From Longimicrobium sp. (GTDB lineage: Bacteria; Gemmatimonadota; Gemmatimonadetes; Longimicrobiales; Longimicrobiaceae), in contig NZ_DATIND010000137.1 in assembly GCF_035474595.1 (NCBI RefSeq), positions 1 to 64,000 on the forward strand: a stretch of DNA of 64,000 bases, in the 5' to 3' direction. Both the position numbers and the translations under genes were made by a program. The first letter of the stretch is position 1. Each line of letters starts with the position of its first letter. The notes under the pieces are model-generated. The model was not told the DNA's origin and ran no database searches. It was given only the letters and a program-made list of their open reading frames with translations. Below, piece by piece: positions 28,305 to 51,176 of this stretch.

Positions 28305-28752
28305 GGAACTCATACCGAATCCGGGAATTCAGTTCGAGAATCCGCGCCGCATCAACCCGACGTCATCCTGAGGCCGACCACACCGTAACCAGTATCTATA
28401 CAAGAGGTTGCAGGCCGAAGGATCTATCGGCGCGGCAGCACGTGATTCGGCGAGATGCACGGATTCTTTCGCCGGATTGTTATCATTCACGCAGAGGACC
28501 GGAGCTGCGCGAGCCGGCCCCCCTCACCGGCTGAAGCCGCAGCAACAACTACGGGAAGCCTCGCAAACCGCGCGAGGCTGTTCGGCTCGGCAACGGTTTC
28601 GGCTCCCGAGGACGCCCTCCCTTTCATCCATCTGGGTCGCGCGAGGCGCGTGTTCGACTCTGCCTGAGACGATTACGATTCTTTTCAAACGCGAAGAGCG
28701 CGAAAGGGGTGATTTTCCCCTGCCGCGCTCTTTCGTCCATCTACCTGCCGCC
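28305..28752. other. Intergenic region between convergent genes, filled by repeat copy A
   Basis: About 450 bp between the acyltransferase (plus) and a glycosyltransferase (minus). Most of it (28307-28676) is a dispersed repeat also found at 50035-50330. No gene is supported. Confidence 0.6.
28307..28676. repeat. Dispersed intergenic repeat, copy A
   Basis: Shares with 50035-50330: CTCATACCG-ATCCGG at the left; a 31-nt identical block (28538-28568 = 50192-50222) and a 22-nt block (28570-28591 = 50224-50245) in the same orientation; CTCCCTTTCATCCAT; and GTGTTCGACTC. A 20-nt block (28408-28427) and GACGTCATCCTGAG (28359-28372) occur inverted in the other copy. Not coding. Confidence 0.85.
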
Positions 28753-49698: not shown

Positions 49699-50369
49699 CG
49701 TTGGGACTCTCTTCGCTTGTATCACGATGCGGAGGTGGACCACGGGGTTGCCCCTGCGAGCCTCACGCCGCGTCAGCCTTGGACCAGTCCACGGCCGTGT
49801 TCGCCCGGCGGTCACGCCGATCGGAGCGCTGGCGCCGAGCCGCGGTCATAGCACATAACGTCGCCGTGGCCGCGCGTCCAAGATCGGTGTACTCCGCACC
49901 CGGCGCCGCGTTCGATACGACGGGGAGATATCCGCCGTGCATCGCGCGTCTCCTCCCATCGCATCGGCGCAGGGCCACGAATGCGCGGAAGGCCGGGCGC
50001 GGAGCCTCCATGCCCGATATCGTCAACCGAATTTCTCATACCGGATTCGGAGATCGATCGTGCAATCCGGAAGCGCACGTGCAACCCTGCCTATAGATCC
50101 TTCGGCCTGCAATCGCTCGTGCAGGGACAACGACGCTGGGGCCGGCCTGAATAGAAAGTTCCGGGCGCAGCCGGTCACCGGCGACTGAAGTCGCAGCAAC
50201 AACTACGGGAAGCCTCGCAAACTGCGCGAGGCTGTTCGGCTCGGCGACAGGCTCCGGCTCCGGAGGACGCCTCCCTTTCATCCATCGTGGCCGCGCGAAG
50301 CGCGGTGTTCGACTCAGGATGACGTCTCTCTGTGCGTTTGTAATGCACAGATGATAGCCAGATCCGGTA
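49699..50369. other. Intergenic region: no gene, then repeat copy B
   Basis: 670 bp between hemB and the formyltransferase, both on minus. The first half (49699-50034) shows no gene; short reading frames of 80-90 codons there have no motif and overlap each other. No convincing hemB -35/-10 was found. The second half holds repeat copy B. Confidence 0.5.
50035..50330. repeat. Dispersed intergenic repeat, copy B
   Basis: Homologous to 28307-28676. Blocks 50192-50222 and 50224-50245 are identical and direct; the 20-nt block 50093-50112 is the exact reverse complement of 28408-28427; CTCAGGATGACGTC (50313-50326) is the reverse complement of 28359-28372. Not coding. Confidence 0.85.
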
Positions 50370-51176
50370 TCAGGCGCGGGCGCGGCGCCGGCGGGCGAAG
50401 GCGCGGACGTCGGTGAAGGCGGGCATGGGAAAGAGCCCCGTGCGGTCCGCCGGCGTGCCCTCTCCCAGCATCCCCGCCGGAAGCCTTCCCTCGCGCTCCA
50501 CCTGGCGGAGCAGCTCGGCCAGGAGGGCGCCGCCGCGGCGCTTCTTCTCCACCATCACGTCCAGGAAGTCGCTGGACGGGCCCATCGCCACCGGGAACGA
50601 CGCCAGCAGCCGGCCCGCGTCGACCTTCGGCACCATCTCGTGGATGGAGACGTAGCCCGCGGGCTCGCCCTCCATCATCTCCCAGAAGGTGCCGAAGCTC
50701 CCCCGGTACAGCGGCAGCCGCCCGTTGTGGACGTTCACCGCGGCCACGCGCGGCACCTCCAGCACCGCCGCCCGGAAGATCTCGGGCGCGCCCACCGACA
50801 CCAGCACGTCGGGGCGGAGCGCGCGCAGCTGCTCGATCGAGGCGTTGAGCGAGGCCACCGCGTGCACCTCCGGCGTGCCCGGCCACGCCTGCTCGCGCCG
50901 CAGGTGCAGCCCCGCCGCGCGGTCGCGGCCGCGGGGGAGCCTGGCCGCGGCCGCCGCGAGCCGCAGGCAGCCGCCCACGCCGCAGAGCAGGAGCGGCGTG
51001 GCGGCGCGCTGCCACACCGGCCCGCGCGGCCGCACCTTTCCAGCGACGGCGAACACGGCCGCGAGCGGTGGTCCGTCCGCATCGCGGTACGCCCGCCAGA
51101 ACACGCCCCCCAGCGCATCGTCCGGCGCGGTGGCCAGCACCACCCGCAGCGGACGCGCGCCCGCGTCGTCCGTCAT
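50370..51176 (-). CDS. Formyltransferase-family protein
   Basis: 268 aa of the N10-formyl-THF formyltransferase fold (Met-tRNA/GART/sugar N-formyltransferase). NVHNGRLPLYRGSFGTFWEM has the N-x-H core and the LLPxYRG-like loop; IHEMVPKVDAGRLL has the catalytic D. In sugar loci such enzymes N-formylate an amino-sugar. It overlaps the deacetylase by 4 bp (ATGA), so deacetylation then formylation of one amino group is a fair guess. N-terminal 100 residues are weakly conserved. Confidence 0.78.
   Translation of the reverse strand: MTDDAGARPLRVVLATAPDDALGGVFWRAYRDADGPPLAAVFAVAGKVRPRGPVWQRAATPLLLCGVGGCLRLAAAAARLPRGRDRAAGLHLRREQAWPGTPEVHAVASLNASIEQLRALRPDVLVSVGAPEIFRAAVLEVPRVAAVNVHNGRLPLYRGSFGTFWEMMEGEPAGYVSIHEMVPKVDAGRLLASFPVAMGPSSDFLDVMVEKKRRGGALLAELLRQVEREGRLPAGMLGEGTPADRTGLFPMPAFTDVRAFARRRRARA

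Follow-up and report, generated by a model that had tools for sequence, protein, structure and literature searches.

Two intergenic repeats in a Longimicrobium genome are probable members of a large nest of CGTC-type hairpins, MITEs, and RAYT-like repeats

CGTC-tagged REPs were defined as a superfamily by Di Nocera et al. (2013; PMC3733652), which includes dRS3 of Neisseria and RPE-4 and RPE-6 of Rickettsia. They occur mostly as HH dimers, with the tags outside, and at the 3' ends of genes; they were reported to lack a dedicated transposase, and their mobilization by other elements was left open (PMC3733652). The published members have a stem of 8 to 9 bp, a loop of 4 to 5 nt, and a CCA tail. 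A few REP dimers were reported within longer palindromes (PMC3733652), and these may be parallel cases to the hairpin cores inside MITEs that we describe here. Bacterial MITEs such as RUP, NEMIS/Correia, ERIC, Nezha, and others are noncoding, 100 to 350 bp long, and adjoin genes, and they have imperfect terminal inverted repeats, a short target duplication, and a fold-back structure. In the RAYT and TIRYT systems (REPtrons and TIRtrons), a Y1 (HUH) gene lies between inverted double palindromes that are also found dispersed. Text searches of the literature on the repeat sequences found no paper describing the repeats reported here.

The stretch of DNA that was analyzed, which we call the window, is 64,000 nucleotides long and lies in one contig (C137) of a 6.57-Mb draft genome of 163 contigs. 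A preliminary description had reported in it a two-copy intergenic repeat. That number holds inside the 64-kb window, but genome-wide there are hundreds of copies, and either window copy finds dozens of relatives. Most probably the two repeats are members of a large nest, in which a CGTC-type hairpin lies in alpha or beta MITEs and a RAYT-like REP lies inside the long copies. The exact two-box hairpin core occurs in at least 309 copies in the genome, the terminal repeat TNATACCGRATYYGG at at least 149 sites (one mismatch allowed), and the double palindrome of module B in at least 266 copies (two mismatches allowed), with none of the three present in the control. These counts are lower bounds, as several contigs end inside the repeats. 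Hundreds of noncoding copies with nothing pseudogene-like about them also rule out that the shared blocks are remnants of one pseudogene, which had been named as the finding that would overturn the preliminary description, along with a failure to find more copies in a genome-wide search.

When the retrieved loci were annotated with probes for the arms, the core, and the module, three kinds of repeat emerged: the hairpin core, the alpha or beta MITE arms that surround many cores, and module B, which is found in the long copies. The core consists of CGTCATCCTGAGGCC, about 37 variable nucleotides, and GGCCGAAGGATC, and it is central in the short elements, which measure about 173 bp (alpha) or about 167 bp (beta). 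Both types fold back, the left arm being an imperfect inverted repeat of the right one and each arm starting TACCGRATYYGG (TACCGAATCCGG…), and both have the terminal inverted repeats and the lack of coding capacity that define MITEs. Cores without recognizable arms are also present; the locus sample is enriched for terminal repeats, and we therefore give no genome-wide fraction for them. In the long elements, module B, of about 165 nt, splits the core at one fixed point, between CCTGAG and GCCGGCCAC, and this junction is identical whether the copy has alpha arms, beta arms, or none that can be recognized. To judge from the sequences, this suggests that module B was originally inserted once and that cores were later swapped between the arm types. 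Module B holds a double palindrome of 59 nt, which occurs alone as well; among 17 of its copies in a contig-ordered list, 10 had neither core junction, 5 had the left one only, and 2 had both. At the end of contig C108 (L008, positions 1 to 761), four elements adjoin one another: a long beta (+), a beta (+), an alpha (-), and another alpha (-).

The first window copy proved to be an alpha element at 28310 to 28485, including its duplications, next to a separate degenerate module at about 28520 to 28660. TCA duplications, read in the sequence at 28310 to 28312 and 28483 to 28485, enclose the alpha-type MITE (TACCGAATCCGG ... GGATTGTTA; 28313 to 28482, plus strand), which was aligned with 17 other alpha copies of the genome and has a slightly decayed right end. 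Its CGTC-type core (CGTCATCCTGAGGCC ... GGCCGAAGGATC; 28361 to 28424, plus strand) was located by the core search and the DNA fold of the family core. The degenerate module B adjoins this element outside its core (28520 to 28660, minus strand), as judged by its match to query positions 221 to 361 in other genome copies, and it contains a RAYT-type double-palindromic REP at 28525 to 28579 (minus strand, the orientation being that in the long element), which is homologous to the 59-nt inverted repeats at a Y1 gene of this genome (L116). The second window copy is a single element of 331 bp, a long-form beta-type MITE on the minus strand (50039 to 50369; TACCGGATTCGG ... CCAGATCCGGTA on the plus strand), which has up to 92% full-length identity to other genome copies and TCA on either side. 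The left TCA was read in the sequence at 50036 to 50038; the right one (50370 to 50372) is, as TGA on the minus strand, the stop codon of a formyltransferase-like open reading frame at 50370 to 51176, as seen from the sequence and the reading frame. Probe annotation and block comparison place the interrupted core of this copy at 50096 to 50324 (minus strand), with the hairpin halves at both ends. Module B lies within it at 50147 to 50312 (minus strand), between CCTGAG and GCCGGCCAC, the same junction as in alpha, beta, and armless copies, and its RAYT-type double palindrome occupies 50176 to 50233 (minus strand), as placed by the genome copies, the L116 repeats, and the fold. The limits first given for the two copies (28307 to 28676 and 50035 to 50330) are thus not the ends of the elements. 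The characterization of the repeat as modular, noncoding, and probably a small nonautonomous mobile element with hairpin structure has stood up, and many further genome copies fit it.

We folded the core as single-stranded DNA, as the preliminary description had proposed, and obtained a hairpin with a stem of ATCCT/AGGAT, a 2x2 GA/GA internal loop, and a second stem of GGCC/GGCC. In the frame GTCATxyzGAG...CGAx'y'z'ATC, the free positions were complementary in 264 of the 279 instances from this genome, its congeners, and other phyla. Four stem types were found among the cores (CCT/AGG, TCC/GGA, TCT/AGA, and CCC/GGG), of which those other than CCT/AGG were not required by the search patterns. 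Like the published CGTC REPs, the core has an unpaired CGTC tag and compensated A-T and T-A pairs at the start of the first stem, it is intergenic and enriched at 3' ends, it occurs in several phyla, and no repeat-flanked tyrosine transposase is associated with it. Neighboring cores form HH pairs, with the tags outside in 23 of 29 cases (P = 1.3e-9 against 1/4), and some of the facing pairs are two complete elements (L003 and L099). Unlike the published REPs, the core has 5 plus 4 bp with tandem GA/GA between them in place of a stem of 8 to 9 bp, a loop of about 37 nt in place of a short one, and a TATAG or CATAG tail and no CCA; many of its copies lie inside a MITE with a TNA duplication, and its loop is sometimes split by a RAYT-type REP. 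We conclude that the core is a long-loop relative of the CGTC REPs, outside the four published families.

A search of 80 genomes found the two-box pattern in 5, which belong to a single genus and include the genome of the window; an exact 23-nt probe had zero matches in other GTDB genomes. A looser two-box probe gave scattered matches in Acidobacteria, Planctomycetota, Omnitrophota, Chloroflexi, Lachnospiraceae, and others. The core relatives in other phyla have very short loops, with 5 nt between GAG and CGA. Alpha, beta, and old cores have the tag CGTC; in two genomes (G001 and G002) and in other phyla it is TGTC. At two loci in Lachnospiraceae and Eubacterium MAGs (L164 and L173), short GTCATCCTGAGGCC-NNN-GGCCGAAGGATC hairpins are repeated head to tail in tandem arrays. 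At four loci in Planctomycetota, Bacteroidia, and Omnitrophota (L150, L151, L153, and L158), a related CGTC hairpin follows the core in inverted orientation, which makes a heterodimer (in L151, for example, GATTCTTCGCTTCGCTCAGAATGAC).

Sixty elements had both ends recognizable, and in these we compared the three bases just outside each terminal repeat. The two triplets were equal in 33 of the 60, against a mean of 14.3 after permutation of the right ends (maximum, 26 in 5,000), and the duplication was inexact in 27. Where TNA was present at both ends (n = 36), the middle bases were G/G in 20 elements, C/C in 10, G/C in 1, and C/G in none (Fisher P = 2.5e-7). This agreement of the middle base shows that the triplets repeat directly and do not simply prolong the inverted repeat, and it therefore indicates a target-site duplication of fixed length, 3 bp of TNA, as is expected of a MITE. 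The ends and target sites that the preliminary description had wanted defined are thus arms beginning TACCGRATYYGG and a duplicated TNA. The duplicated triplet is the stop codon of the neighboring gene in 16 of the 60 elements, and of the 30 ends that lay at most 60 nt from a stop codon, 16 had a distance of exactly 0. This coincidence results partly from the TNA preference and from the loss of insertions inside genes, and we do not claim a dedicated recognition of stop codons. An insertion into a TGA stop duplicates the stop, so that the upstream gene stays intact, and frequent landing there would explain a harmless buildup at gene ends. No empty site could be demonstrated, because the two flanking genes have diverged too far in the congeners, where the best match reached about 76% identity and covered part of one gene. 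In size, lack of coding capacity, terminal repeats, short duplication, fold-back structure, and position next to genes, the alpha and beta elements resemble the bacterial MITEs named above; they differ in that a cross-phylum REP hairpin lies at their center, that the target is often a TGA stop, and that several arm families share one core.

The terminal inverted repeats, together with the TNA duplication, point to a DDE transposase that acts in trans by a cut-and-paste mechanism. Some groups of the IS5 superfamily duplicate TNA, and it is most plausibly an enzyme of this superfamily that would have moved the MITE. In the 163-contig draft, from which a copy may be missing, searches with PF01609 (DDE_Tnp_1), PF13586 (DDE_Tnp_1_2), and PF13359 (DDE_Tnp_4) found no DDE partner with matching ends; the last two models had zero matches in the genome. 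PF01609 matched two genes, one of the IS4 type (L122) and one of the IS5/IS1182 type (L123); both were rejected as partners because their ends differ from the TACCGRATYYGG repeat. No long element was seen when the sequence was read at three unpaired terminal-repeat sites (L077, L101, and L109). The IS4-family gene at L122 (1032 to 2675, contig C107) is flanked by inverted 35-nt copies of a GCGAATGAATTCGCGGCAACAACTGCACAAAGTC repeat, which resembles the palindromes of the Y1 genes.

The boxes of the hairpin are better conserved than the rest of the element. Among 18 alpha and 24 beta copies, agreement with the consensus was 99 to 100% in the boxes and 87 to 90% in the arms and loop. The boxes were free of mismatches in 19 of 21 copies with a decayed duplication and in 25 of 27 with an intact one. 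Many of these loci were collected through the terminal repeat and not through the core; a mild bias nevertheless remains, as a locus was accepted as an element only if it contained 8 or 9 nt of one of the boxes. Clean boxes may be the result of selection after insertion, or they may be a requirement for mobility seen in young copies; we favor the first with moderate confidence. Taken together, the innermost widespread unit is a DNA hairpin of the CGTC REP type (ATCCT, GA/GA, GGCC, and a variable loop of about 37 nt), which in many copies is the cargo of a fold-back alpha or beta MITE with TACCGRATYYGG ends and a 3-bp TNA duplication, often at a TGA stop codon, and whose boxes would be kept by selection after insertion. 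More tentatively, CGTC REPs may spread in this genome as the cargo of a DDE MITE that favors stop codons, the boxes, and not the arms or loop, being selected afterwards for a role at the level of the host or chromosome. If true, this would explain both the near-invariant boxes and the convergent pairing. The hairpin inside a MITE with a TNA duplication offers a testable answer to how CGTC REPs spread, and the invariant boxes, set against drifting arms and loop, give a way to ask whether the host benefits from REP hairpins or only tolerates them.

It is also conceivable, if rather unlikely, that the repeats are a structured RNA, such as a 3'-untranslated-region element or a terminator, that is kept by the host and for which mobility was only the origin. 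The intact boxes in copies with a decayed duplication would agree with this, and so would the gene context, which we counted for 80 clusters against a background of 182 with a simple purpose-written gene caller based on codon usage. No cluster lay inside a gene (0/80), only 3 of 80 lay between divergent genes (background, 26/182), and 31 of 80 lay between convergent genes (background, 22/182; P = 3e-6). However, the cores show only a weak preference for one orientation with respect to the closest 3' end (34 of 52 single cores, P = 0.04), and between unidirectional genes the preference is not significant (18/30). In addition, no match in the window exceeded the gathering cutoff of any Rfam family, and the two window stretches contain neither an intrinsic terminator nor a sigma-70-like promoter.

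A less likely alternative is that a dedicated hairpin-processing (HUH/Y1) transposase moves the cores and that the alpha and beta arms are simply old neighbors. The hairpin is REP-like, most pairs have their tags outward, cores without recognizable arms occur, and the genome does encode Y1 proteins. Six matches were found (L116 to L121, at C46:148725, C91:105520, C39:10086, C73:8856, C46:79048, and C39:16156), the last of them damaged. However, no CGTC core was present near any of the six, and most adjoin other double palindromes. Moreover, the ends of the arms carry a 3-bp duplication, whereas the HUH enzymes of the IS200/IS605 type are not known to leave a target duplication upon transposition.

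These Y1 genes bear instead on module B. At L116, the 59-nt palindrome occurs twice upstream and once, inverted, downstream of the gene, with 100% complementarity, so that the same palindromes lie inverted on both sides of a Y1 gene, as in RAYT and TIRYT systems. The L116 protein matches Pfam Y1_Tnp and the IS200/IS605 model NF033573 (69.7 bits; cutoff, 55). Unlike a RAYT, it scores below the cutoff of REP_Tyr_transpos (30 bits; cutoff, 80) and fits the general IS200 model. The locus agrees with published accounts of TIRYT genes, whose terminal repeats are double palindromes. Analogous double palindromes adjoin most of the remaining Y1 genes, several of them with a GCAACAAC linker. Module B departs from RAYT and TIRYT systems in that its double palindrome is also found within a different mobile repeat, at one fixed position, and in that this linker is common to the repeats of several Y1 genes here. 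In the nest, a RAYT-type repeat is thus embedded at one constant position of a CGTC repeat. This inner repeat, the REP of a RAYT-like Y1 transposase that the genome encodes, is a mobile repeat in its own right and sits with its flanks inside the hairpin; the Y1 enzyme would have moved it there. The six loci look like several parallel REP-type systems within one genome. At one of them (L120, 1165 to 1860, minus strand), the transposase frame runs on into a TIGR02574-type addiction-module component domain.

The preliminary description had also concluded, from four blocks common to the window copies, that parts of the repeat can flip. The blocks are at the places reported: those of 31 nt (28538 and 50192) and 22 nt (28570 and 50224) are in direct order, and those of 20 nt (28408, plus; 50093, minus) and 14 nt (28359, plus; 50313, minus) are inverted. 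We found one more direct block, of 17 nt (28616 and 50270). Probes of 18 and 27 nt had 2 matches each in the 64-kb window, against 0.01 and 0.00 expected, which is not chance; the 14-nt block alone had two exact matches in the window, and its count at three mismatches was at chance level. The 20- and 14-nt blocks are in opposite orientation because the first copy is an alpha MITE (plus) beside a module (minus) and the second is a beta MITE (minus) with the same module inside its core. Two insertions, made separately by elements with different arms, thus produced the apparent flip, and no inversion took place. A single invertible two-copy element, with an internal module turned by, for example, site-specific recombination, would account for two direct and two inverted blocks but is refuted, since the inverted blocks sit in elements with different arms and insertion sites, the copies differ in architecture and not in the orientation of one module, and the orientation of module B to the core is constant wherever both core junctions are kept. 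A GCACGT box lies 13 to 20 nt downstream of many cores, for example at 28440 to 28452, even where the arms differ; the conserved unit may include it.
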